Below, piece after piece: positions 1,190 to 39,925 of a stretch of 64,000 nt of DNA (the stretch's first letter is position 1; each line of letters opens with the position of its first letter). The notes below the pieces were generated by a model. It was not told the origin of the DNA and made no database searches. It saw only the letters and a program-made list of their open reading frames with translations. Source of the DNA: Mycobacterium barrassiae (GTDB taxonomy: Bacteria; Actinomycetota; Actinomycetes; Mycobacteriales; Mycobacteriaceae); contig NZ_JACKUK010000012.1 in assembly GCF_025822765.1 (NCBI RefSeq), positions 1 through 64,000 of the forward strand. The letters run 5' to 3'. The translations under genes were made by a program, and so were the position numbers.

Positions 1190-2446
1190 ATGTTGGCGGT
1201 GGCACCGAAAGAGCGTCTTGAGGTGCTCTTCGATGAGTTGGCGGAGTTAAGTGGTCAACGCAACGCCATCGATGCGCGCATCGTGGAGATCGCCGCCGAG
1301 ATCGAAAACGACCGGCTCAGGGGGATCACCGGCGCACGGTCACTGGCGGCGCTGATGGCCTGGAAGACCGGCACCTCCCCGACCAACGCCAACACCATCG
1401 CCACCATCGCCGGCCGACTCACCCAGTTCCCCCGCTGTGTGGCCGGGATGCGCGAAGGCCGACTCTCCCTGGATCAGGTCGGCGTCATCGCCGCCCGCGC
1501 CGCCGACGGCTCCGATGACCACTACGCCCCCCTGGCCGCCGTGGCCACCGTCACCCAACTGCGCACCGCCGTGCGGCTCGAACCACGCCCGGAACCCAGC
1601 CCCTGGGCCCCGAAGCCCTCGATCACCAAAACCAGCGACGAGCAGTTCACCTGCTGGCGCATCCGACTCGCCCACCCCGAGGCCGCACTGTTCGACGCCG
1701 CCCTGAAATCCCATCACGACGCACTGATCGCCCAATACAAACGCGACCACAACCTCGACGACACCGACGACAACCCCGCCGAATACGACCCCCACACCAA
1801 GGCTTCCCCGCTGCGGGCGCCGTTTCCCACCACCCTGGACGCCTTCCTGCAGTTAGTCGAAACCGGCTGGGACGCCGACGTCGCCCGCCGACCCCACGGC
1901 CACCACACCACCGTGCTCGTGCACCTCGACGTCAAAGAACACCTCGCCTCACTGCACCTGGGCCCACTGCTGACCGACGCCGAACGCCGATACCTGACCT
2001 GTGACGCCACCGCCGAAGTCTGGTTTCACCGCGACGGCAACCTCATCGGCGCCGGACGCAGCACCCGACTGATCAACCGCCGACTACGCCGCGCCCTCGA
2101 ACACCGCCACCCCACCTGCGCCGTACCCGGCTGCGGCGCCACCCGCGGCCTGCACGCCCACCACCTCAAGCATTGGGAAGACGGCGGCCTCACCGAAATG
2201 AACAACCTCATCCTGCTCTGCCCCTATCACCACCGCATGCACCACCGCGGCGAAATCACCATCACCGGACCACCCGAGCGCCTCACCGTCACCGACGACA
2301 CCGGCCAAACACTGAGCCCCGCATCACTGGCCCGACCACCCACCACACCCCCACCCAACGTCCCACCCTGCCCCGGCCCCCTCGGCGAACGCGCCCAATG
2401 GTGGTGGTACAACCCCTTCGAACACCAACCACCATCCGACAACTAG
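1190..2446 (+). CDS. 13E12/REP-family DUF222 protein with HNH endonuclease domain
   Basis: The 418-residue protein has an N-terminal DUF222 region (about 5-280, heptad-like start EVLFDELAELSGQR). It has a C-terminal HNH nuclease motif at about 305-352: a CAVPGCG zinc knuckle, then HAHHLKHWEDGG, NNLILLCPYHHRMHH. This is the multicopy 13E12 repeat family of mycobacteria, often present in dozens of copies and regarded as mobile or repeat-derived. The substrate is unknown. It has very high GC with long proline/histidine codon runs at the 3' end. Its TAG stop overlaps the TAG stop of the giant gene on the other strand by four bases (2443-2446), so the two genes converge tail to tail with no spacer. 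Confidence 0.88.
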   Translation: MLAVAPKERLEVLFDELAELSGQRNAIDARIVEIAAEIENDRLRGITGARSLAALMAWKTGTSPTNANTIATIAGRLTQFPRCVAGMREGRLSLDQVGVIAARAADGSDDHYAPLAAVATVTQLRTAVRLEPRPEPSPWAPKPSITKTSDEQFTCWRIRLAHPEAALFDAALKSHHDALIAQYKRDHNLDDTDDNPAEYDPHTKASPLRAPFPTTLDAFLQLVETGWDADVARRPHGHHTTVLVHLDVKEHLASLHLGPLLTDAERRYLTCDATAEVWFHRDGNLIGAGRSTRLINRRLRRALEHRHPTCAVPGCGATRGLHAHHLKHWEDGGLTEMNNLILLCPYHHRMHHRGEITITGPPERLTVTDDTGQTLSPASLARPPTTPPPNVPPCPGPLGERAQWWWYNPFEHQPPSDN

Positions 2447-5400
2447 GTCGCGCCAATATGGTCGAGTTCATCGAAGCGAGCGAGTGCCTGATCGCGTTGG
2501 TTGTGATCGAAGGCCTCCATCCGCGTCACGCGAGGTCCGTCGAAGTGGAGAAGAATGACGGTCGGCAGTTCGATCGCAGTGCCCTCGACCGTCGCGCCTC
2601 TGACGACAACGCTGATGACGACCCCCTTCGCGGAGTGCTTGGGAATGTCGGCGACGTCTACGCGGATGTCGGGAATCAGTGACGCCATCGCGCGGAGGGA
2701 TGTCCAGTGGTCACCGATCTTGTCCCCAGTCCCGAGCTGTCGGTGGTTGACGAACGTGGCGCCGGATTCGCGAGCGGCCAACGTATCCCAGTCTTGACGG
2801 TTGGCGCATTCGATCACTTGGCGCATCGATTCGATGACTTCTGGATGGTCTACCTCACCCGACGCGATCCACCGAGCATCGAGCTCATCGAAGGCGGCGT
2901 CGATGTCTTCCGGGTCGAAAATCGCGAACCACGAGATCAATTCGTCGTTGTCAAGACTGCCGAGGTTCAACGCCTCGACAGCGATAGGACTACCGGCCTC
3001 GCTCAGATCGCGGAATGTCACGCGACTCAGCATCAAGTGCTCGCCCCTGACTGCGATGGGCTCAAACTCCGCACGCCACCCGGCGGCCGCACCGAACGTC
3101 ACTGTGTGCGCGTACTCCGGCCTGATTGAACCCGCGTCGCGCAGCCCTTTTCGCCGATCTTCGTACATACAGTCCTTTGCGAAAAGTGCGAGATACCCGT
3201 CGGGGTCGCGTCTGCCGAATGCATCCACTACGCGTGTGAGGATGCGGGCTACTGCGTTCTTCAGCAGAGGTGCGAACGTCTCGAGATGGGCAGTCTGGAC
3301 AGCGTCGACGACCTCTGTGTGGGTGGACTCCCCCGACGCGATCCAGCGGGTGTGCAATTCCGCGAAGGCGGCGTCGATGTCTTCGGGGTCGAACAGAGTA
3401 CTGCGGCAAATCAATTCGTCTTCGGTGGCCTCTACGAGGGCCAGCACCTCTGCAACGACCGGGCGATCGGCCTCGCCGTTGTCGCGGCAAATATGGCGAA
3501 CTAGTGCCAGATGAGGCCCTCGGATCGCGACTGGGGCGATCTCCACACGCCAAGTCGGCGTGCCGGTGAACAAAAGCCCATGTGCGAGTTCACGGTCCAC
3601 CGGGCCCTCGTTGCGCAAGCCTTTTCGCCGGTCCTCATAGCGCGCGTTGCGGTCAAACGCGGCGAGGTAGCCGTCCAGATCCCGAGTATTGAACGCGTCT
3701 GCGGCCTGGGTATCCCCGCGGATCGCGGAGTTGTTCAGTTGGGGCGCTGTGGGTGTGAGTTCCTCTAACCGCGCTAGTGCGTCGTTGACGTCTGTTTCGT
3801 CGTAAATCTCCACTCGACTGATCACGTCACCGTCGACCGCGAAGACGACGACATCTCGCCACTCCCCCTCGAAGCCGTCGCTTGACGTGCATCGGTGGAC
3901 TTGCGTGAGCACTGCTCCGAGGTCCGTCACTCGATGCACGGCTTCGATATGGATTCGGGCGTCAGGAGTCAACTCCCCCGCGGCATGAAGGAACGCTGTC
4001 ATCTCACCGGCCGGGATCGAGACGCCCGGCCTGTGGTCGACATTGACCCAATCACGCGTCGTAGCCGGCAGTTCGCGACGGTTGAGGGCTGCGTAGACGT
4101 CAGCGACAACGGACCACACCTCTGCGTGAGCCGCGGCTTCGCCCGCTACATACCGGTCATCGAGTTCAGCGAATGCAGCGTCGATATCGGCAAGATCGAA
4201 TGCGACCGTCGCGGTAATTCGATTGTCCGCATCGATCTCGATGATGCCGAGCATCTCGGCGCTGACTTCGCCGGGCAACTGACCACGGTTCCTAGTGCAG
4301 ACACGTTTGAGGACCAGGCGTTCGCCCCGGGTCGAGATGAGGCCAAATGTCATGTGCTCGAACCCGACCTCGACAGCGGCTTGCATATCCGCGATCTGCA
4401 CATCTCGTCCCCGCCGTACGCCGGCATTCACGACCCGACGCCGGTCTATGGCGACGATGTCCTCGGCAAGTACATCCGCCATCGCCGTCCAATCGCGCGC
4501 CGCCAAAGACTCCTCATACTTGTCGGCCACACGACTCGCCATATTCGCCAGTTGGCTTGCCGGGACGGTGAGTTCGTCGAACCTTGCAAGCGCAGCGTCC
4601 AGCTCGTCCTCGTCGAAGATCTCGACGCGGTCAATCAAGTCACCGTCGAATATGGTGAGGCTGATCCCCCGCCACTGAGCGTCGAACCCGTCCGGTGTCG
4701 TCCAATCTCCCTGCCAGGACAGTAAGGCCGCCGAGTTGCCGAGCCGATGCACCGACTCGATGTACACAGCGGTTCGCGGGACCTCTATTGCAGCCGCCAG
4801 GTACGCGTCGCGCGATGCATCTTGGATCATCGGCAGGCGACGATGATCCTCAACCACCCAATCCGGTGTTGCAGCCGGCAATTCGCTCCGATTCATCGCG
4901 GCGAAGATCTTCGTCGCCAGAGTCCATGTGTGCGCGTGCGACGCCGCCTCGCCGGCTGCGTACCGGGCATTCAGTTCCTCGAAAGCAGTATTGATCTCGT
5001 CAAGGTCGAACATCACGCACGCCGTGATCCGCTGCTCGCCGTCGACCTCGACGATGCCGAGCACCTCGGTACGGTATGCCTCCGGTCCCTGATCGTGCCC
5101 CCCGAATCGGTAACGACTGAGTACGAGATGTTCTCCTCGCGTTGCGATCACAGTGGCCGTTATGTCCTTGACCCCGACGTCCGCGATTGCGCGCCAATCG
5201 CGGATCGCCGCATCCCTCCCGCGTCGAAGGCCCAGGCCGACAATGGAACGTCGATCGTCGGTGGACGTGTCATCCGCCAACAGCTCTGCCATCCCGATCC
5301 AGTCGCGGGCCGCGAACGCGGCATTGAGCCGTACATGCAGTCGACTCGCCATGTTCTGCGGTCGCCCAGTTTGCCCGCTGAGCTCGTCGAATTTCGCGAG

Positions 5401-8400
5401 CGCATCGTCGAGATCGGCGTCGTCGAAGAACTCGAAGCGATTAATCGCGTCGTCTCGAACCGTCAGTAGCGAGACGCCCGGTTGTTCAGCGCCGAAGCCC
5501 TGCCGCGAGGTTCCGTGGGCGACGCAGGTGAGTACTGCCCCTATGCGGGTCAGCCGATGGACCGCGACAATGTCGACACGCCAATCGGGTACGACTTCCC
5601 ATGCGGCATGCATGTTCGCCGCGAAGTCGCCCTCCCACAGTGCGGGTCGGTGGTGGTCAATGTAGACCCAGTCCGGTGATGTAGCGGCCAGCTCCTGGCG
5701 GTTGAGCGCGGCGTTCGCACCGGCGATGATGGACCACACCCGCGCATATGGCATCGCTTCACCAGCCATATACCGGGCGTCGAGTTCCGCAATCGCCGTA
5801 TCGATGTCGTCGGGGTCGAACACCACTCGGGCTGTGATCCGGCCGTCGTCATCACTCATTGCGACGCAGAGCGATTCGGTGCTGAACGTTTCGGATCCTT
5901 GACCGCGGCTCGACAAGTGCGAACGTGCAAGGAAGAGGCGGTCGCCGCGTGTGGCGATGACATCCGAGGTGATCTCAGTGCCACCCAGTTCCGCGACGGC
6001 CCGCGCGTCGGCGATCGCGGCACTTCGACCGCGTCGCGTCCCGGCGTTCACGATGCGGCGACGATCGTCAAGCGAAAGATCCTCCGCCAAGTACTCCGCC
6101 ATGGACGCCCAGTCGCGGGTCGCAAAGCACGCCAAGGCGCGCGCTTCCGCTCGACTCGCGGTGTTTTCGAGTCGCGCTGGTCCGCTGAGTTCGTCGAACT
6201 TGGCTAGTGCTGCGTAAAGGTCTGCCTCATCGAACAATTCAGTGCGATTGATCATGCCGCGATCGACGGTCACCAGATCGATCTGTCGCCACTCGGCGGC
6301 GAAGCCCGTTCTAGACGTACCCTGCGTCGCGCTGGTGACGACAGCCCCAAACATGTTCAGTCGATAGACAACCTCGACGCGGATCTTGTTGTCTGGCGTG
6401 TCCTCCCACGAAGCATGGATAAATGGGAGCAGATCGCCCACCGCGAAAGTACCTCCACCCTTTCGGTGGTCGAGGCTGACGAAGTCTGACGGGGTCGGAG
6501 GCAGCTCGTGTCGGTTGAGCGTGGCATAGCCCGCTGCGATGACCGACCATATGTCTGCGTACGGGGCCGCCTCACCGGTGAGATACCGGGCGTCGAGTTC
6601 TTCAAAGGCAGCATCGATGTCGTCGACATCGAAAATGATCTGGGCCGTCATTCGACCGTCACCATCGATTTCGCCTAGTACAACGTTCTCGACGTAGAAC
6701 GCCCCGGGTCTCGCTTCGTAACGCGACTCTGCCCGAGCCAGGACGAGACGTTCACCGCGCGTTGCGATCACGTCGGTCGCAAATTCTTGGATCCCGAAGC
6801 TGGCGGCAGACCGCATGTCATGCAACAGCGAGTACTTGCCGTGTCGAATCCCACCGTTCACGACTCGGCGGCGGTCCTCGTTCTGCAGGTCATCTGCCAA
6901 CATCTCAGCCATCGCGTCCCAATCGCGGGCAGCGAATGATGCCCGGAAGCGGGCGCCCAATTGGCTTGCTGCGTTCTCCATCGGAGGTTTCGGCCGACTG
7001 AGTTCATCGAATCGCGCGAGCGCCGTGTCCAGCTCTGACTCGTCGAAGAGTTCGCACCGGTTGATGCGGTCGCCGTCGACCGTCGAGACACCGATTACGC
7101 CCCACTCGGCGTCAAATCCTTGCTGCGAGGTGTTGTGCCACGAGTGACTGACCACCGCGCCGAGGTCGGTCAACCGATGCACCGCGCGGATGTCGATCCG
7201 GAGATCGGGCGAGTCATTCAAAGAGGCTTGGAGATACGGCATCATTTCACCCGGCGCGAATGCAAGCGGATGCCGATGATCAAGGCTCACAAAGTTCGGT
7301 GCTGTCAGAGGGAGTTCCCGTCTGTTGACTGCAGCGAAAGCATCCGCGATCACCGACCACGTCTGCGAATGCGCAGCTGCCTCGCCGGCGAGGTACCGCG
7401 CATCGAGTTCTTCGAATGCAGCATGGATGTCCTCGGGATCGAAAAGGACGAGCGCAGCGATCCGCTCCTCCTCATCGATCTCGACGAGTTGAACGAGCTC
7501 GATCAAACTCGCCTCGGGTCGCTGCGCCCCGCCTCCGTAGCGGATGTGGCTGAGGGTCAGATGCTCGCCCCTGGTCGCAATGGCAGTTGGTGCTATCTCG
7601 GTGAGACCGATCTCGGCCCCTACCCGTAGGTCGTCGACCACGGCGCTTCGACCGCGCCGAAGACCGGCGTTGACCACCCGCCGGCGATCGTCAATCACAA
7701 TGTCATCAGCCATAACCGAGGCCACCGCATCCCAGTTACCCGCGGCGATATGCGCCTGACAGCGTGATTCAACCCGGCCGGCCGTATTCGTCAATCGCGT
7801 CGCGGGGCGACAAAGTTCGTCGAACCGCACAAGCGCCGCATCGAGGTCTTTCTCGTCGAATAGTTCGCTGTGTTTGATTCGGTCGCCGTCGATCGTTGTA
7901 ACCGTGACTTCTCGCCACTCCCCCTCGAATCCATGTTGGGAGGTTCCCTTCGCGACGTGAGTGACGACCGCGCCGAGATGTGTCAGTCGATGAACCGCCT
8001 CGATGTAGATGCTGACATCTGGTGTTTGGTGCCACATTTCGCGCACATACGGAGAGAGTTCACCTGGGGCGAACGCGGCTCCCCGTCTGTGGTCGACATT
8101 CACCGCATCGGGGGTCCACGCCGGAAGCTCATGCCTCCTCACTGCCGCGTATCCCTGGGTGAGCACAGACCACGCTTGCGCGTATGGGGCTGCTTCCCCC
8201 GCGGCGTACCGGGCGTCGAGTTCTTCGAATGCGGCGTCGACGTCATCGGGGTCGAATGAGACTACTCCGACAACCTGGTCTTCGGCGTTGACATCCATGA
8301 CGGTGAGGAACGACACGTCAGCCCGCTTGTCATCGCCGACGTGGGTTCGAAAAAGGGCAAGCCGACGCCCGCGAATGGCAAGCACGGTCGCGTCGAGTCG

Positions 8401-11400
8401 TGGCGCTCCGAGATCCGCCATAACGCGCAGGTTTTCGACCTCTCCATCTCGACCGCGTCGGGTTCCGCCGCTGACCACATGGCGACGATCGTCCGCGTAG
8501 GCCTCGTCGGCATGTATCGCAGCGATCGCGTGCCAGTCGCGGGCTTCGAACAACGCCGCAATGCGATCGGACACCCGGGTTGCGGCGTTCTCCAGTCGCG
8601 TTGCGGGACGGGTGAGTTCGTCGAATCGGGCGAGCGCTGCCTCCAGGTCCGTCTCGTCGAATAGCTCACAGCGACTTGCCTTGTCGCCGTCAACCGTCAT
8701 GAGATTGAGCATTCGCCATTCGGCATCGAAGCCCTCCGGCGATGTTCCTCGCGACACCTGAGTGACAAGCACCGCGTGATCGCGCAACGCGTGTACTGAC
8801 TCAACGTGATTGGTGAGATTTGGCGTGAGGTCGTTGAGCGTGCTGACGGTTTTTCGGAGGTCCGCATCGGCGAGCGGCGTCCCTCGTCGATGATCGACTG
8901 ACGTCCAGTCCGGCGCTGCATCCGGCATCTCGTGACGAGCAAGTGCGGCAAACACACCGACGACGACCGACCAAGTCGACGCATGCGCGGCCGCTTCGCC
9001 CGCGAGATAGAGGGCGTCGAGTTCGTTGAAGGCGGAATCGAGGTCATCGATATCGAATGCGATCCTCCGTGTGATCTGGTCTTCGTCGTTGATTTCCAGG
9101 ATGTCCACGATGTCCGTATGGAACGCCTCTGGGGCCTGTTCGCGCCCCGAGAAGCGGGTGTGAAAAAGAGCCAGACGCTCTCCGCGAGTCGCAACGACGG
9201 CAGACTTCGCGCTCACAACACCCAACTCGGCGATCGCCTGCATGTCCGAAATCTCGGCATTCCGACCGCGCCGGATCCCGGCGCCCACGACCCGTCGACG
9301 GTCGTCGTGGCACATGTCCTCGGCAACAACCGCGGTCATTGCCTCCCAGTCGCGAGCAGCCAGACACGTATCGAAGCGGCTGTTGACCCGAGTCGCCGCA
9401 TTTTCCAACTGCGGTGTCGAACGGGTGAGCGCGTCGAACTTCGCGAGCGCGGTCTCGAGATCGGCTTCCTCGAAAAGCTCACAGCGGACGACCATGCCAC
9501 CGTCGACCATCGAGAGGCTGACTTCGCGCCATTCGGCGTCGAAGCCCTCGCGTGACCGCGTATACGCCACATACCCGACGACAGCCCCGAAGTCGTTTAG
9601 TCGATGCACGACCTGGACGTGGGCCTTGATGTGTTGATCCAGGTCATGTCCGGCCTGGACATACGCCTCGAGGTCGCCGGGAGCGAAATTTCTCGTCCGG
9701 CGGTGATCCAGCGTGACGCAGTCGGGCGACATAGGTGGAACCTCGTCGTGGCTCACCGCCGCGAAGGTGCCTGCGATGACCGACCACGTATGTGCGTGCC
9801 TGGCCGCCTCGCCGGCGAGGTATCGGGAATCGAGTTCTGCAAATGCCGCGTCAAAATCGTCCGGGTCGAATACCACCCTTGTGGTCTCAAGCCCCTCCGC
9901 ATCGACTTCACTCAGTTCCAGCGTCTCGGCAGTAAAGGGGTTGGGTCCAGCTTGGCGCTGCTCCCACTGGATACGACTGAGGCATAGCCGATTTCCGCGC
10001 AGAGCAATCGGCACACTGGTGGCCTCGACACCCAGGTCGGCGATTGCCCGGATATTCTCCATCGCCGCCGCGCGATCGTGCGTCGCACGCCGCAGTCCCT
10101 GGCGCCGGTCTTCATTGAAGTGATCGGCCGCGAGCAGGGCTTCGATTTCGTCAGCACGGCCTTGCGCGAAGAGGGTGTAACACTGGCCCTCGACCCGGCT
10201 TGCCGCGTTCTCGAGCCAAGTTGTCGACCTTCCCGCCTCGAACCTGGCGTGCGTGGCTTCCATTTCCGCCATCGCGGCGTCCATATCCTCGACGTCGAAC
10301 CAGATCTGCAGCGCGATTCGACCGCCCTCGTCGAGGCCGACGAGCTGCAGCATCTCGTCCTGCGGCGCCCCAGCGGTGCCGTCGGCAGTGCGCACCACGG
10401 TTCGCGTCAACGCCAGGCGTTCCCCCCTGATGGCGATGACGGTGCGACGCCCTGGCACGGCATGCATATCACGGATGAATCTGTCTGCTCCAGTTGCCAT
10501 TTCGCTGGCGGGGAGATCCATGCGCTGGAAGCCGACGATCTTGCGGCGGCTCTCGATGGATCCGATTCGTGCATGCTCGCGCTCGACATCGCTCAATGCG
10601 CGACGGCTCACCGCGTCCTCGACCCGGCGGAGTACGCGCACACACTCGTTTTCTAATTCGACGTCGGCATGCATGGCGCCGAGCTCTGCCATCGCGGCCT
10701 CGAGGTCCTCGACGTCGAACCACACCTGCACCGCGATTCGGCCGTCCTCGTCGAGTCCGACAACCTGAAGCCACTCGTCCTGCGGCGCCCCTGGACTTAC
10801 GTCTGTGGTGCCGACCTCCAACCTGGAGAGAGCCAAACGCTCGCCCCGCACGGCCAGCACCGAACGGCGCGAACGCGTCACATGCAGTCCACGAGCGAAA
10901 GTTTCAGCCTCACTTATGAATTCGTGTGGTCGATATTCGACCCGCGTGAACCCGACGATCTTGCGGCGGCTCTCGATCGAGCCCAGCGGCGCATACTCTC
11001 GTTCCATTGCGGCTCGATCTGAGTTCTGGACAGCAGCATCGACGCGGCGAAGTGCGCGCACACACTCGTTCTCCAGTTCGACGACCGACGTGTCAGGTAC
11101 CGATGGGGTCGGCGAGGTTCGGGGCCCGACAACTCGGTGTGCCTTCTCCGCAAGTGCTGCAGCGCCTTTCAGTTCATACAGTTCGGCCGCCCGCTCCGCG
11201 GCCGCCCGTGCTCCGGCGGCGTCACCAGCGATCGTCAACACCGTCGCCAGTGCCAAGCAGGCATCACCGTGATCGACCAGCAGATCGGTGCGCTCGGCGA
11301 CCGCAACGGCTTCCTGCGCCACCCGATTCGCCTCATCGTGAGCGCCACTACGCGCCAGCAGTTGTGCGCGAACAGTCCGCCAAGCGATCGACGGCTTCAA

Positions 11401-14400
11401 AGCATGGCCCGCAAGACGCTCACTCTCCGAGCACAAATCGTCGGCCTCGGCGTCCCTGTCGAGCGCGAGACACGCTCGCGCCAACAACGCAGCCGTCTCC
11501 GCGGTATCCGCGTCGAGACCCATCCGCCGAAAGCCGTCGTACGCCCGCCGAAGCAGCGGCTCTGCGGCCGCAGGATCGTCGGCGACCAACTCGACGATGC
11601 CCGCGAACTGGTCCACCTCCAGCAGCGCATGCCGCATTCCGAGTTCCGTGAGTGATCTGCGAGCCGAATCGATCAACGCACGCCCCGCGGCGGCCCGCCC
11701 ACGCAGCGCATCCAGTACACCCTGACACCTCGTCGACGTCGCCTCCACCACCGGCGACCCGGTCGTGATGCGAAGCAGCCGAACAACGTCGAGACACCGG
11801 CCACCCGCGCGCGGCACCGGGTTCGGACCCCACAACGCCGCCAACGGGGCACCTGCCAGCACGGCGTTGACGCGTCGGTGCTCATGCGCCCGCCGCGCCG
11901 CCGTCAGCGCCTGGTCCAGCGCGGTTTCCGCGTCTCCGATCCGACCCAGCCGAGCCAAGCACATGGCCCGCACGGTGTGCGCCTTGGCCTCCCCCGCCGC
12001 ATCCTCCAAACCGGCCAGCTTCTCGGCCGCCGCAGCCACCGCGGCTTCGATCTCATCCAAGCGCTCGGGCTCGGTCAGCATTGAGAGCTCACCATCAAAA
12101 CAGGTGCCCCAGGCCGCCAGACGCACGGAATCACCTGCGGCTCGCTGCAACTGCGCCACCGCACCCGCAGCCGACACCACATCGCCCGCGGCCAACAGGG
12201 CTTCACATCGCGCAACCAACAATTCAGCCTGCAGAGCGACGCGATCCGGCAGTTCCTCGTCGAGCTCCTCCAACGCGTGCAACGCCTTGTCGAAGAGGTC
12301 GGCCGCACCTTCGTAGGCGAGTCGCGCCATCGCCTGATCCGCGGCGCGCCGACAATACTCGACTGCCTTGGCAGCGTTACCCGCCCATGCGCATTCGAAG
12401 TAGTGGTACGCCAATTCGGCCAACAGTTCGTCGTCGTCCGCGCCCGCTTCGGCCTCCAGCGTTGCGGCAATCTTCTGATGCAGCCGCATCCGTCGCACCG
12501 ACGCAAGCTCGGCGAGCAACGACTGCCGCACCAAAGCGTGGTTGAACCGATAGCGTCCGCCGGGCTCCTCGATGACGATGCCCGCTTTGCACGCCTCGTC
12601 GAATGCGTCGATCAAATCCGTACCGACGACACTCTCCACCAACGCCAGAGGGAACCGACTGCCGACGACCGCCGCCGCAGCCAGCGCCTTGTTGGTCTCC
12701 TCCGGCAGTCGAGATAGCCTGCGGCTCACCGCTTCCCGAACGCCCTGCGGCAGGGTGCTCGGATCCCACCGGCCGCCGCTTTCGTCGACATGCCGCAGTG
12801 CCTCGATGAGGAAGAACGGATTGCCGCCTGTGACCGACGCCAACGCACGGGCCAACTCCTCGTCGTCGTAACCGGCCTCGACAACGTAGGCGGTCACGTC
12901 GTCCTCATCGAGGCCGCCGAGCGCAAGGCGCGTGGCGGAGCCGTCGCGGTGCAAGTCCGCCAGCATCGCCGCCAGCGGGTGCGAGCGATCGAGGTCGGTG
13001 CTGCGATAGGTGCCGACGATCTGCACGCGGGCGTGTTCGCCGAAGCGAAGCAGATGCCGCAACAGCAGCAATGTGGGCTTGGCCGCCCAGTGCAGGTCAT
13101 CGAGGATCAGGACGACGGGCGCACTCGCCGACGCCGCCGCCACCAGCGCCACCACCGCGTCGAACAATGCATAACGTTCGGTGTCCGGGTCGGAGCGCGG
13201 CGGAGTCGGTAGGTCCGGAACAACTTCGGTGAGCCCCGGAACCAACGGCAGCAGCGCTTCGACGCCACGCAGGGCGCGCAGCCGCTTGGCGCCGAGACAC
13301 GGCACCAACGAGCGCAAGGCCTCCGCAAACGGCTGGTATGCCGCACCGAGGTCCTCGTCGCAGCGGCCGTAGAGGACGACCGCACCTTGCTCGTACGCCT
13401 GACGCGACCATTCGCCGGCCAGCCGCGTCTTCCCCACCCCAGGCTCGCCGGCGACCAGCACCGCTTGCGTCCCGACCGCGAGCGTGGACTGCCAGGCCGC
13501 CAACAGCCCCGCGAGCTCTCGACCGCGCCCGACGAACGGCCCCGCCCCGGTCAGCACCGCAGGCAGCGCGGGTCGCTGGATCGGCGGCTCGCTCGGCTGT
13601 GCGGGCGCATCGTCGGCGGCTTCCAGGCGCAGTTCGAACACGTGCTCCGGACGCGCGAGGTTGCGAAGCTGACGAATCCCCAGATCGGCGAGGACGACGT
13701 CGTCGGCGAGGGTGTCGATGACAAGCTCTGCCGTCGCACCCGAGCACAGGATCTGTCCGCCCGCGGCCAGCGACCGCAGCCGCGCGGCGCGGTTCACCGC
13801 CCGGCCGAAGTAGTCGCCGTCGCGCAGTTCGACCTCGCCAGTGTGCAGCGCCACCCGGACCCGCATCGGCTGCGCCAACGCCCACGGCTCGTGACCTATC
13901 GCCTCCTGCAACTGAATCGCCGCCGCGGCGGCCGCTGACGGCCGGTCGAACACCGAGAAGGTCGCATCGCCCTCGCCCCGGGTCTTGACCAGCCGTCCGC
14001 CGCGGGAGGTGACGACCTGTTCGACGATCTCGTCGTGGCGGGCCAGCGCCACCGCCATGGCATCCGGTTGCGCCTCCCACGCAGCCGTCGACCCCTCGAT
14101 GTCGGTGAGCAGGAATGTGACTGCCTTGGTGACCGCCGAAAGCTGCTGCGACACAGGGATTTCCAGCGCGGGATCCTGAGCGACGATCGCGGCCTCCAGT
14201 CGGCGCAGGTTCGGACCCGGATCTACCCCCAGCTCGTCGGCGAGCAGCGACCGTGCGCGTTGGAAGGCGGCCAGCGCCTCACCCTGCCGTCCCGCGCGGT
14301 AGAGGGCGAGCATCAGCTGTCCCCAGCGCCGCTCGCGCAGCGGCGCGTCGGCAATCGCCGCCTCGAGCTCACCGATGATCTCCGCGGCGCGACCCGTCGC

Positions 14401-14904
14401 GAGCAGCGCGTCGGCGCGGTCCTCCACCAGCGCGGCGTGCCCCTCGATCCAGCGCGTCCTCTCCGAATCGGCGCGCGGCCCGTCGGGCAGTTCGGGAACT
14501 CCGCGCCAAAGGGCCAGCGCCTCATCGAAGCGGGCCACCGCCTGACCGGCGTCTCCGGCCGCGATCGCATCGCGCCCCAGCCTGGCGGCCACCTTGTGGC
14601 GGGTGGCGTCGATGTCGGTGGTGCTCAGGGTCCAGCCCGAGCCCTCGGTCAGGACGAAGCCATCACCAAGGGCGCGCCGCAGAGAAGAGATGTGGGTCTG
14701 CAACGCCTTGGCCGCGGTGCGCGGTGGACGGGCGCCCCAGAGGAGCTCGGCCAGGGTGTCGGCGGAGACGACGGAGCCGCCGTGCAGTCCGAGCATCGTC
14801 AGGATGGCCCGAGGTTTGGCGCCGGGAACTGCGACCGGCAGACCGTGCTGCCGGACCTGCAGAGGTCCCAAAACCCCCAGCTCCACGTGTTGAAGAGTAG
14901 TCAC
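2443..14904 (-). CDS. Giant BTAD regulator / class III cyclase / ATPase / TPR protein with 21 SnoaL-like modules
   Basis: The product is 4,153 residues from GTG at 14904-14902. A longer frame to 15252 exists but overruns the divergent gene. Domains in order: OmpR-type winged helix (about 7-95), BTAD/SARP domain (100-245), class III nucleotide cyclase (261-430), AAA-type ATPase (about 452-850) and TPR-like helices to about 1270. The cyclase has metal aspartates D268 in TDIEGST and D313 in GEGD, and N371/R375 in VNRAAR. The ATPase has Walker A GEPGVGKT at 486-493 and Walker B LILDDLHWA near 599. From 1277 to the end are 12 type-A and 9 type-B NTF2/SnoaL-like modules. The front resembles mycobacterial cyclase-ATPase regulators, but with BTAD instead of LuxR output. 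The cyclase residues look intact. Nucleotide specificity and the role of the tail are unknown. The frame stays open over 12.5 kb, which implies selection. Confidence 0.9.
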   Translation of the reverse strand: MTTLQHVELGVLGPLQVRQHGLPVAVPGAKPRAILTMLGLHGGSVVSADTLAELLWGARPPRTAAKALQTHISSLRRALGDGFVLTEGSGWTLSTTDIDATRHKVAARLGRDAIAAGDAGQAVARFDEALALWRGVPELPDGPRADSERTRWIEGHAALVEDRADALLATGRAAEIIGELEAAIADAPLRERRWGQLMLALYRAGRQGEALAAFQRARSLLADELGVDPGPNLRRLEAAIVAQDPALEIPVSQQLSAVTKAVTFLLTDIEGSTAAWEAQPDAMAVALARHDEIVEQVVTSRGGRLVKTRGEGDATFSVFDRPSAAAAAAIQLQEAIGHEPWALAQPMRVRVALHTGEVELRDGDYFGRAVNRAARLRSLAAGGQILCSGATAELVIDTLADDVVLADLGIRQLRNLARPEHVFELRLEAADDAPAQPSEPPIQRPALPAVLTGAGPFVGRGRELAGLLAAWQSTLAVGTQAVLVAGEPGVGKTRLAGEWSRQAYEQGAVVLYGRCDEDLGAAYQPFAEALRSLVPCLGAKRLRALRGVEALLPLVPGLTEVVPDLPTPPRSDPDTERYALFDAVVALVAAASASAPVVLILDDLHWAAKPTLLLLRHLLRFGEHARVQIVGTYRSTDLDRSHPLAAMLADLHRDGSATRLALGGLDEDDVTAYVVEAGYDDEELARALASVTGGNPFFLIEALRHVDESGGRWDPSTLPQGVREAVSRRLSRLPEETNKALAAAAVVGSRFPLALVESVVGTDLIDAFDEACKAGIVIEEPGGRYRFNHALVRQSLLAELASVRRMRLHQKIAATLEAEAGADDDELLAELAYHYFECAWAGNAAKAVEYCRRAADQAMARLAYEGAADLFDKALHALEELDEELPDRVALQAELLVARCEALLAAGDVVSAAGAVAQLQRAAGDSVRLAAWGTCFDGELSMLTEPERLDEIEAAVAAAAEKLAGLEDAAGEAKAHTVRAMCLARLGRIGDAETALDQALTAARRAHEHRRVNAVLAGAPLAALWGPNPVPRAGGRCLDVVRLLRITTGSPVVEATSTRCQGVLDALRGRAAAGRALIDSARRSLTELGMRHALLEVDQFAGIVELVADDPAAAEPLLRRAYDGFRRMGLDADTAETAALLARACLALDRDAEADDLCSESERLAGHALKPSIAWRTVRAQLLARSGAHDEANRVAQEAVAVAERTDLLVDHGDACLALATVLTIAGDAAGARAAAERAAELYELKGAAALAEKAHRVVGPRTSPTPSVPDTSVVELENECVRALRRVDAAVQNSDRAAMEREYAPLGSIESRRKIVGFTRVEYRPHEFISEAETFARGLHVTRSRRSVLAVRGERLALSRLEVGTTDVSPGAPQDEWLQVVGLDEDGRIAVQVWFDVEDLEAAMAELGAMHADVELENECVRVLRRVEDAVSRRALSDVEREHARIGSIESRRKIVGFQRMDLPASEMATGADRFIRDMHAVPGRRTVIAIRGERLALTRTVVRTADGTAGAPQDEMLQLVGLDEGGRIALQIWFDVEDMDAAMAEMEATHARFEAGRSTTWLENAASRVEGQCYTLFAQGRADEIEALLAADHFNEDRRQGLRRATHDRAAAMENIRAIADLGVEATSVPIALRGNRLCLSRIQWEQRQAGPNPFTAETLELSEVDAEGLETTRVVFDPDDFDAAFAELDSRYLAGEAARHAHTWSVIAGTFAAVSHDEVPPMSPDCVTLDHRRTRNFAPGDLEAYVQAGHDLDQHIKAHVQVVHRLNDFGAVVGYVAYTRSREGFDAEWREVSLSMVDGGMVVRCELFEEADLETALAKFDALTRSTPQLENAATRVNSRFDTCLAARDWEAMTAVVAEDMCHDDRRRVVGAGIRRGRNAEISDMQAIAELGVVSAKSAVVATRGERLALFHTRFSGREQAPEAFHTDIVDILEINDEDQITRRIAFDIDDLDSAFNELDALYLAGEAAAHASTWSVVVGVFAALARHEMPDAAPDWTSVDHRRGTPLADADLRKTVSTLNDLTPNLTNHVESVHALRDHAVLVTQVSRGTSPEGFDAEWRMLNLMTVDGDKASRCELFDETDLEAALARFDELTRPATRLENAATRVSDRIAALFEARDWHAIAAIHADEAYADDRRHVVSGGTRRGRDGEVENLRVMADLGAPRLDATVLAIRGRRLALFRTHVGDDKRADVSFLTVMDVNAEDQVVGVVSFDPDDVDAAFEELDARYAAGEAAPYAQAWSVLTQGYAAVRRHELPAWTPDAVNVDHRRGAAFAPGELSPYVREMWHQTPDVSIYIEAVHRLTHLGAVVTHVAKGTSQHGFEGEWREVTVTTIDGDRIKHSELFDEKDLDAALVRFDELCRPATRLTNTAGRVESRCQAHIAAGNWDAVASVMADDIVIDDRRRVVNAGLRRGRSAVVDDLRVGAEIGLTEIAPTAIATRGEHLTLSHIRYGGGAQRPEASLIELVQLVEIDEEERIAALVLFDPEDIHAAFEELDARYLAGEAAAHSQTWSVIADAFAAVNRRELPLTAPNFVSLDHRHPLAFAPGEMMPYLQASLNDSPDLRIDIRAVHRLTDLGAVVSHSWHNTSQQGFDAEWGVIGVSTVDGDRINRCELFDESELDTALARFDELSRPKPPMENAASQLGARFRASFAARDWDAMAEMLADDLQNEDRRRVVNGGIRHGKYSLLHDMRSAASFGIQEFATDVIATRGERLVLARAESRYEARPGAFYVENVVLGEIDGDGRMTAQIIFDVDDIDAAFEELDARYLTGEAAPYADIWSVIAAGYATLNRHELPPTPSDFVSLDHRKGGGTFAVGDLLPFIHASWEDTPDNKIRVEVVYRLNMFGAVVTSATQGTSRTGFAAEWRQIDLVTVDRGMINRTELFDEADLYAALAKFDELSGPARLENTASRAEARALACFATRDWASMAEYLAEDLSLDDRRRIVNAGTRRGRSAAIADARAVAELGGTEITSDVIATRGDRLFLARSHLSSRGQGSETFSTESLCVAMSDDDGRITARVVFDPDDIDTAIAELDARYMAGEAMPYARVWSIIAGANAALNRQELAATSPDWVYIDHHRPALWEGDFAANMHAAWEVVPDWRVDIVAVHRLTRIGAVLTCVAHGTSRQGFGAEQPGVSLLTVRDDAINRFEFFDDADLDDALAKFDELSGQTGRPQNMASRLHVRLNAAFAARDWIGMAELLADDTSTDDRRSIVGLGLRRGRDAAIRDWRAIADVGVKDITATVIATRGEHLVLSRYRFGGHDQGPEAYRTEVLGIVEVDGEQRITACVMFDLDEINTAFEELNARYAAGEAASHAHTWTLATKIFAAMNRSELPAATPDWVVEDHRRLPMIQDASRDAYLAAAIEVPRTAVYIESVHRLGNSAALLSWQGDWTTPDGFDAQWRGISLTIFDGDLIDRVEIFDEDELDAALARFDELTVPASQLANMASRVADKYEESLAARDWTAMADVLAEDIVAIDRRRVVNAGVRRGRDVQIADMQAAVEVGFEHMTFGLISTRGERLVLKRVCTRNRGQLPGEVSAEMLGIIEIDADNRITATVAFDLADIDAAFAELDDRYVAGEAAAHAEVWSVVADVYAALNRRELPATTRDWVNVDHRPGVSIPAGEMTAFLHAAGELTPDARIHIEAVHRVTDLGAVLTQVHRCTSSDGFEGEWRDVVVFAVDGDVISRVEIYDETDVNDALARLEELTPTAPQLNNSAIRGDTQAADAFNTRDLDGYLAAFDRNARYEDRRKGLRNEGPVDRELAHGLLFTGTPTWRVEIAPVAIRGPHLALVRHICRDNGEADRPVVAEVLALVEATEDELICRSTLFDPEDIDAAFAELHTRWIASGESTHTEVVDAVQTAHLETFAPLLKNAVARILTRVVDAFGRRDPDGYLALFAKDCMYEDRRKGLRDAGSIRPEYAHTVTFGAAAGWRAEFEPIAVRGEHLMLSRVTFRDLSEAGSPIAVEALNLGSLDNDELISWFAIFDPEDIDAAFDELDARWIASGEVDHPEVIESMRQVIECANRQDWDTLAARESGATFVNHRQLGTGDKIGDHWTSLRAMASLIPDIRVDVADIPKHSAKGVVISVVVRGATVEGTAIELPTVILLHFDGPRVTRMEAFDHNQRDQALARFDELDHIGAT
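2446..11076 (-). repeat. Tandem array of SnoaL/NTF2-like protein modules inside the giant gene
   Basis: Units read from the N-terminal side are: 11076-10657 (A, 140 residues), 10656-10216 (A), 10215-9409 (A+B, 269), 9408-8596 (A+B), 8595-7795, 7794-6982, 6981-6172, 6171-5362, 5361-4552, 4551-3739 (all A+B, 267-271 residues), 3738-3265 (A only, 158) and 3264-2446 (A+B, 273). Type A starts LENAASR, carries DDRRRVV and RRGRD, then ATRGERL, and ends FDPDDIDAAFEELDARY. Type B starts TWSV, carries DHRR, AVHRL, GFDAEWR and ends ELFDEADLDAALARFDEL. Spacing is constant and no stop or frameshift interrupts the array. The fold assignment is inferred from these motifs. Confidence 0.85.
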
Positions 14905-39550: not shown

Positions 39551-39925
39551 ATGGTGCATCCATTCCGCAGCGCAATCGAAGCCCGCGACCTCGACGCCGC
39601 CGTCGCCCTGCTTCGCGAGGACGTCGTCTTCAACAGCCCGGTCGTGTTCACGCCGTACAAGGGCCGCGAGGCGATGCGAGAGATTCTCGCCGCCGTCATC
39701 GACGTGTTCGAAGACTTCGGCTACACCCGTGAAATCGGCGCCGACGGGGATCGCGACCATGCGCTCATGTTCAAGGCCCGGGTCGGCGAGAAACAGCTGG
39801 AGGGCTGCGATTTCATCCGGCTCGACGAGAATGGCGCCATCGAGGAGTTCACCGTGATGCTTCGGCCGATGCAGGCCGTCCTCGCGGTGGCGGAGGCGAT
39901 GAAGGAGCGGCTCGCCGCTGGTTGA
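39551..39925 (+). CDS. SnoaL/NTF2-like small protein
   Basis: The 124-residue single-domain protein of the cone-shaped alpha+beta fold has HPFRSAIEARDLDAAVALLREDVVFNSPVVFTPYKGREAM at the start, typical of SnoaL/limonene-epoxide-hydrolase-like proteins. No catalytic pair can be assigned with confidence. It starts 17 bases after the lipoprotein stop, on the same strand, so it is probably co-transcribed. It is related in fold, though not in evident sequence detail, to the modules of the giant gene. Confidence 0.75.
   Translation: MVHPFRSAIEARDLDAAVALLREDVVFNSPVVFTPYKGREAMREILAAVIDVFEDFGYTREIGADGDRDHALMFKARVGEKQLEGCDFIRLDENGAIEEFTVMLRPMQAVLAVAEAMKERLAAG

Follow-up and report, generated by a model that had tools for sequence, protein, structure and literature searches.

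AfsR and the large SARP regulators combine a BTAD domain, an ATPase, and a TPR region. According to the main text of PMC4452763, from which the word SnoaL is absent, the mycobacterial Mclx proteins (Rv0386, Rv1358, and Rv2488c) are built of a cyclase, an AAA/NB-ARC ATPase, and a LuxR domain. SnoaL domains are described in passages of PMC9023288 and PMC8999054 as regulators of the ECF41 sigma factors to which they are fused (SigJ and SigI), likely via a small ligand, and fungal NLRs are presented in an excerpt of PMC4986451 as a STAND ATPase with C-terminal repeats (WD, ANK, or TPR) of variable length. The evolutionary tables excerpted from PMC3388012 list the NTF2 domain and adenylate cyclase activity and no SnoaL.

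We analyzed a stretch of 64,000 nucleotides of Mycobacterium barrassiae DNA (the window), which carries a giant regulator gene on the minus strand (2443..14904), a single unbroken frame with a GTG start at 14904. The 4,153-residue product consists, in this order, of a BTAD head, a class III cyclase, an AAA_16 (STAND-type) ATPase, a TPR region, and 12 A and 9 B modules. The BTAD head matches the structures 8hvr, 8jke, and 8k60 at 4e-37 to 6e-36, and an ATPase and TPRs lie behind it as in AfsR. Unlike AfsR, however, the window protein has a cyclase separating the BTAD domain from the ATPase and, past the TPR region, some 2,880 residues of SnoaL array, and its match to the curated NCBIfam model of AfsR is only partial, with 171 bits against a cutoff of 1,430. 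A cyclase, an AAA/NB-ARC ATPase, and a DNA-binding domain are also shared with the Mclx proteins as described in the main text of PMC4452763, but their LuxR domain is C-terminal, whereas the BTAD domain of the window protein is N-terminal. No LuxR family was among the 14 Pfam matches of the window protein at E ≤ 1. To judge from sequence comparison, the protein belongs to a widespread mycobacterial family in which the head barely changes and probably pocket-bearing modules multiply and differ, as expected for a chemical sensor of many compounds. We lean, by a little, toward reading the array of SnoaL/NTF2-like modules as the ligand-sensing part of a one-protein chemical sensor.

The gene and its head domains

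The mechanically called ORF extends from 15252 to 2443 (4,269 aa). The start at GTG 14904, which gives 4,153 codons, is backed by a family alignment in which relatives share this start position, with ATG as the start codon in one (among the 14 sequences listed). From this GTG the frame is open to its end, as the first-pass annotation had claimed, and comparably long intact frames are present in single-contig genomes, for example, one of 4,380 codons (G447, L123). Pairwise identities within the array are 25 to 60% among the A modules and 23 to 54% among the B modules, indicating neither recent duplication nor assembly stutter, and judged by these identities the modules are old.

Pfam matches on the whole protein were to BTAD (1.5e-37), Guanylate_cyc (1e-9), AAA_16 (2.7e-27), SnoaL_2 (1.3e-31, in ten stretches), and also Trans_reg_C, with TPR_12 at 0.00086, under its cutoff. 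Across 56 relatives, the head domains are 77 to 91% identical to those of the window protein. The BTAD/SARP head (winged helix plus BTAD; residues 30 to 240; 14185..14817, minus strand) scored above the cutoff with both PF03704 (129.6 bits) and PF00486 (29.2 bits) and matched AfsR and EmbR structures at 1e-35 to 4e-37, in agreement with the BTAD head proposed earlier. The class III cyclase domain (residues 259 to 430; 13615..14130, minus strand) matched PF00211 and solved cyclases, the best at 1e-18. Its metal aspartates had been given as D268 and D313. D268 (14101..14103, minus strand) stands, but D313 does not; the alignment to solved cyclases sets KTRGEG opposite KTTGDG and places the second metal position at E311 (13972..13974, minus strand, within a GEGD motif), with D313 two residues further on. 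Instead of the two aspartates of class III cyclases, the window protein and 56 of 56 relatives have an aspartate and a glutamate. All of D268, K307, E311, D313, N371, and R375 are invariant in these 56 relatives; K307 is presumably the substrate lysine, and we take N371 and R375 to be the transition-state Asn and Arg. This invariance argues for a kept function of the cyclase. With Glu in place of Asp at the second metal position, the enzyme might be less active.

The AAA_16 or STAND-type ATPase (residues 456 to 628; 13021..13539, minus strand; PF13191, 2.7e-27) has its Walker A motif at residues 486 to 493 and its Walker B motif at 599 to 603. GEPGVGKT, the Walker B DD, and GNPFFL (12808..12825, minus strand), which we take to be the GxP motif of STAND ATPases, are invariant in all 56 relatives, and the ATPase with Walker A and B motifs named in the first-pass annotation is thereby confirmed. 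The TPR-like helices named there are recognizable as well: the region of residues 720 to 1270 (11095..12747, minus strand) matches PF13424 weakly and is 44 to 52% identical in zinc-ribbon-headed relatives. The sequence features of STAND proteins found here are therefore Walker A, Walker B, the GxP motif, and helical repeats behind the ATPase, the last with TPR_12 below its cutoff. By sequence, no PDB chain matched the ATPase-TPR part at E ≤ 0.1.

The neighboring plus-strand gene at 1190-2446, presumably HNH/DUF222-like, shares its last 4 bases with the 3' end of the giant gene, and its homologues lie beside 2 of 78 loci. A separate SnoaL_2 protein is encoded elsewhere in the window (39563-39847, plus strand, in a frame of 143 residues; L160). 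No conserved operon was found, as each of six neighbors of the window gene lies beside only 1 to 4 of the 78 loci, and no partner gene can therefore be named; flanks in this survey are short in many loci, with more than 1.5 kb upstream of the BTAD frame in 44. Two other candidate identities were discarded. For a defense system, no PADLOC model matched at E ≤ 0.001, and for a mobile element, the A6-B4-A7-B5 segment was without a match in plasmid and phage collections at E ≤ 1e-5.

Layout and identity of the modules

The tail (residues 1275 to 4153) is a succession of A modules (about 140 residues each) and shorter B modules (about 130) in the order A A, (A B) x8, A A B. Delineation of the modules reproduced the count of 21, 12 A and 9 B, that had been proposed. 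All lie on the minus strand, beginning with A1 (10663..11082), the positional cap also recognized by first-A position matching, and A2 (10237..10662). These are followed by A3 (9802..10221), B1 (9415..9801), A4 (8989..9414), B2 (8602..8988), A5 (8188..8601), B3 (7801..8187), A6 (7375..7800), B4 (6988..7374), A7 (6565..6987), B5 (6175..6564), A8 (5755..6174), B6 (5368..5754), A9 (4942..5367), B7 (4558..4941), A10 (4132..4557), and B8 (3745..4131). The array ends with A11 (3319..3744), A12 (2857..3270), and the terminal B9 (2446..2853), the most divergent B module.

The whole protein scored 109.7 bits with SnoaL_2 against a cutoff of 27, but single modules matched weakly (9 of 12 A and 5 of 9 B at E ≤ 0.1), so that profile-profile comparison was needed to make the assignment firm. 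Profiles made from 150 of the 712 A and 150 of the 618 B modules were compared by hhalign with a SnoaL_2 profile built from 13 SnoaL_2 proteins of the same genome, giving 95.8% for A (121 columns) and 91.0% for B (96 columns), and the A and B profiles matched each other at 90.1%. In contrast, ten control comparisons of A and B with five head pieces reached at most 2.9%. At the level of profiles, the SnoaL/NTF2-like identity claimed for both module types is therefore upheld. With eight SnoaL_4 proteins as the profile, A reached 83.3% and B only 0.2%, and solved structures match the modules only at E values of 0.16 to 0.97.

Distribution, origin, and turnover of the array

The first-pass annotation had described the tail as being without known precedent. 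We found no published description of the BTAD-cyclase-STAND-TPR-SnoaL array combination in the open-access literature, subscription journals being mostly outside the scope of the search. However, the tail is not unique: listing the architecture across mycobacterial genomes, as had been suggested, uncovered a large family, with A modules (match at 1e-40) in 121 of 297 sampled genomes of the same genus, the window genome included, which is a lower bound as few candidates per genome were scored. Only 7 of 396 genomes match in a phylum-wide sample, six of the seven in the genus. In the named genome collection, 147 stretches encode a relative, and the best 80 of the 147 resolve into 73 loci titled Mycobacterium, Mycolicibacter, or Mycolicibacterium (69 loci), Mycobacteriaceae bacterium (2 loci), and Actinomycetota bacterium (2 loci).

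Module frames, 77 in total, are present in every one of the 73 loci from these best 80 of 147 stretches, and the order TPR-A-A holds in 65 of the 65 frames that contain both the TPR region and modules. Of the remaining 12 frames, 5 are the rear parts of genes that are interrupted, and 7 start at or near the edge of a stretch. Closed frames with a BTAD domain number 53, four of which hold only the front part of an interrupted gene (L040, L074, L079, and L096). The other 49, which are intact, have 1,989 to 5,475 codons with 3 to 16 A and 2 to 14 B modules, as counted with profiles made from the window modules. One frame (L065) is without the BTAD domain and part of the cyclase. The contig of a MAG (L030, JAUZFP010000050.1) holds a frame of 6,769 codons that is closed at neither end, with a minimum of 25 A and 24 B modules, the most alike A-module pair being 97% identical.

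A second giant regulator is encoded in the same genome (L120:5705-13924; G000:C23, about 87704-95923). It has a double zinc ribbon, a cyclase with the canonical GDG motif, an ATPase, TPRs, and six divergent units, each of an A-like module and a B-like stretch behind it; the B-like stretches reached only 5.6% against the SnoaL_2 profile. The same zinc-ribbon head is found in a genome of another class with only five modules (A-A-B-A-A) and a TPR region 52% identical to that of the window protein, a relative present in 1 of 3 genomes of its class. Across the BTAD and zinc-ribbon heads, the cyclase, ATPase, and TPR region are the constant core. The existence of zinc-ribbon-headed relatives indicates that the DNA-binding head is not essential to the design. 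The TPR region was matched at 1e-20 in 42 of 346 genomes of the phylum, 38 of them outside the genus and class, and array modules were absent from all 16 TPR-matching loci examined outside the genus and class (L132 to L147). In 8 of the 8 loci among these 16 whose match spans the end of the TPR region, the protein stops 4 to 17 residues later, indicating that the array was added to a preexisting switch. A 3,330-codon frame from another class (G085:C105:7631-11443) has two TPR-region matches and is perhaps a tandem duplicate of the switch.

First A modules matched first A modules of other arrays in 2,921 of 3,660 comparisons (0.80; chance, 0.13). The inner A modules were hardly positional (3,786 of 21,180 at the same relative position; 0.18; chance, 0.13), and the corresponding values were 864 of 3,660 (0.24) for the last A modules and 945 of 3,660 (0.26; chance, 0.16) for the first B modules. 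This comparison covers 61 closed frames with at least 7 modules, 12 of which come from ten interrupted, edge, or unresolved loci. Median identities of the window modules to their best matches in other arrays are 45 to 57% for A1 to A10 and B1 to B8 and 34 to 36% for A11, A12, and B9. In the 14 closest pairs of relatives, dN/dS was 0.06 to 0.11 from the cyclase to the TPR region, a head measure outside which the BTAD domain lies, and 0.21 to 0.29 in matched modules, where only pairs above 65% identity were used. The latter values indicate that the modules are under purifying selection. Module number differs in 9 of the 10 pairs with complete arrays, and together with dN/dS this indicates that modules are selected, yet come and go.

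The same differences in module number could be expected if the array were a tolerated by-product of tandem duplication whose length and diversity are unselected. The GC3 of the window gene fits such an origin, falling from 0.82 to 0.85 in the BTAD, cyclase, and ATPase domains through 0.74 in the TPR region to 0.69 to 0.71 in the array, as does the occurrence of interrupted genes in at least 7 of the 73 loci (a change of frame in six, L040, L041, L066, L074, L079, and L096, and an in-frame stop in L036). These genes may be dispensable in some strains or may reflect sequencing errors. However, the dN/dS of matched modules, frames that stay open over as many as 5,475 codons, and predicted pocket sites that change less between orthologues than other, equally variable sites do all weigh against a by-product, which we consider highly improbable.

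Predicted pockets and comparison with known sensors

The strands of the modules (712 A and 618 B compared) have a conserved face and a variable one. Within-domain couplings join helix positions to the variable face (for example, 61-88 and 54-88 in A; 8-99, 12-97, and 13-77 in B), which suggests that this face is turned toward the helices, although the inference leans one way as conserved columns yield little coupling. NTF2-like proteins bind ligands on the helix-facing side. Between matched modules, the variable strand-face sites showed fewer differences than equally variable controls (0.150 versus 0.216 in A and 0.120 versus 0.213 in B; site permutation, P = 0.004 for each), in 156 A and 129 B reciprocal-best pairs of 70 to 98.5% identity, 5 and 4 of which lie within one array; the site sets were picked after the per-position entropies had been seen. 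Eight A positions that we take to lie opposite pocket residues of ketosteroid isomerase gave 0.123 differences versus 0.230 at 19 equally variable control sites, with 0 of 20,000 permutations as extreme. These eight were chosen by the ketosteroid isomerase alignment after per-site differences had been seen, and their controls omit seven variable sites of uncertain register. With all 14 pocket positions of the enzyme and the alignment taken literally, the effect persisted (P = 0.0003). However, the literal alignment puts the beta-4/beta-6 pocket residues of the enzyme on the conserved A face (positions 85, 87, 116, 118, and 120), where these five alone showed no effect (P = 0.50; alternative register, P = 0.004), and this register would count against the variable face being the inner face.

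To differ between modules and be kept within a module lineage is the usual mark of specificity-determining positions. The predicted pocket positions behave in this way, differing between modules while being preserved between matching modules of different species, a pattern that buried packing instead of ligand contact could also give. No positive selection was found in the predicted pockets, with a pooled dN/dS at variable strand-face sites of 0.27 (A) and 0.15 (B) versus 0.24 (A) and 0.22 (B) over all module sites, so that the A variable face is not below the modules as a whole. The idea of fast pocket evolution was therefore given up in favor of private, preserved pockets.

The modules might instead be enzymes, the tail being a chain of SnoaL/KSI-like catalytic sites with activity rather than sensing as its role. 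Enzymes occur among the families and weak structure matches of the fold, such as isomerases, polyketide or ester cyclases, and an epoxide hydrolase. The catalytic set of ketosteroid isomerase consists of Tyr14, Asp38 (the general base), and Asp99. The residue aligned with this Asp38, A position 38, is D in 87% of the 712 A modules, an Arg follows two residues on in 98%, and R85 (81%) would, were the literal alignment correct, point toward the pocket as well. However, the equivalents of Tyr14 and Asp99 fall on A positions 14 and 104, which are variable, and the modules are fused behind the TPR region in 65 of the 65 frames with TPRs in view (best 80 of 147 stretches). We regard the catalytic reading as very unlikely. 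A conserved Asp-x-Arg that opens the first strand occurs in both A (D38 and R40) and B (D32 and R34) and may be a common anchor or structural.

The choice between a sensor with many pockets and a scaffold had been left open in the first-pass annotation, and the evolutionary evidence now favors ligand pockets over an inert scaffold; the DNA-binding head included in that picture is not essential to the design. As a protein-binding scaffold or ruler, the tail would have modules that pair mutually or with partners, pockets that are mere packing, and a length that matters. The alternation of A and B along most of the array, the strong conservation of one strand face in both types, and the frequent dimerization of NTF2-like domains would all suit such a role. 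However, a scaffold needs no module-specific residues at predicted pocket positions that are constant between orthologues, the sites that change fastest include those of the termini and the last helix, probably on the surface, and a ruler is poorly fitted by a range of 3 to 16 A modules in the 49 intact frames. Covariation between neighboring modules (631 A-B and 566 B-A pairs) gave no clear signal, the best inter-module couplings being 3.8 for A-B versus up to 4.0 in shuffles and 4.6 and 4.0 for B-A versus 3.9; three shuffles were made of each, and only these two B-A pairs slightly exceed the best of the shuffles. We judge a scaffold to be rather unlikely.

On the ligand-sensing reading of the array, a switch of cyclase, STAND ATPase, and TPR region, headed here by a DNA-binding BTAD (SARP) domain, would have acquired an expandable SnoaL/NTF2-like array at its C terminus as a sensor, in which every module retains a small-molecule pocket of its own. 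When one or more compounds bind, the array would sit differently on the TPR/ATPase core, and the ATPase would then go to an ATP-bound, oligomeric state. Class III cyclases act as dimers, and the oligomer would pair the cyclase domains and expose or cluster the BTAD head, the outputs being a cyclic nucleotide and, in the BTAD version, also DNA binding. Ligand binding, autoinhibition, oligomerization, cyclase activity, and DNA binding are what we infer, and the order of events after ligand binding is less certain than the sensing role of the array. If the array senses compounds, it is a modular recognition protein that can be screened part by part, the inputs of a class of orphan cyclases can be tested directly, and a pocketed, enzyme-like domain joins the STAND ATPase sensors as a new kind of repeat.

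More tentatively, and at somewhat below even chance, the family could be a bacterial counterpart of NLR-type receptors, with a recombining library of SnoaL pockets, each of private specificity, read by a cyclase-STAND head that stays fixed. One protein would then integrate a dozen or more chemical cues, and species would retune it by module gain and loss. The likeness to fungal NLRs, as these are presented in the excerpt of PMC4986451, is that a conserved ATPase switch is followed, at the C terminus, by a repeat array of varying length. However, the repeats of the window protein are SnoaL domains of about 130 to 140 residues rather than short superstructure repeats, there is no sign of positive selection in the window family, and the most alike modules within one array are typically about 60% identical (median). 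The TOMM kinase/cyclase fusions (TIGR03903) are partially matched over the cyclase, the ATPase, and the next helices with 139 bits, far below the cutoff of 705.75 bits. The use of SnoaL as an on-board regulator of a fused protein has, by analogy, a precedent in the ECF41 factors described in passages of PMC9023288 and PMC8999054; these have one C-terminal SnoaL domain on a sigma factor, whereas the window protein has 21 modules on a STAND-cyclase.
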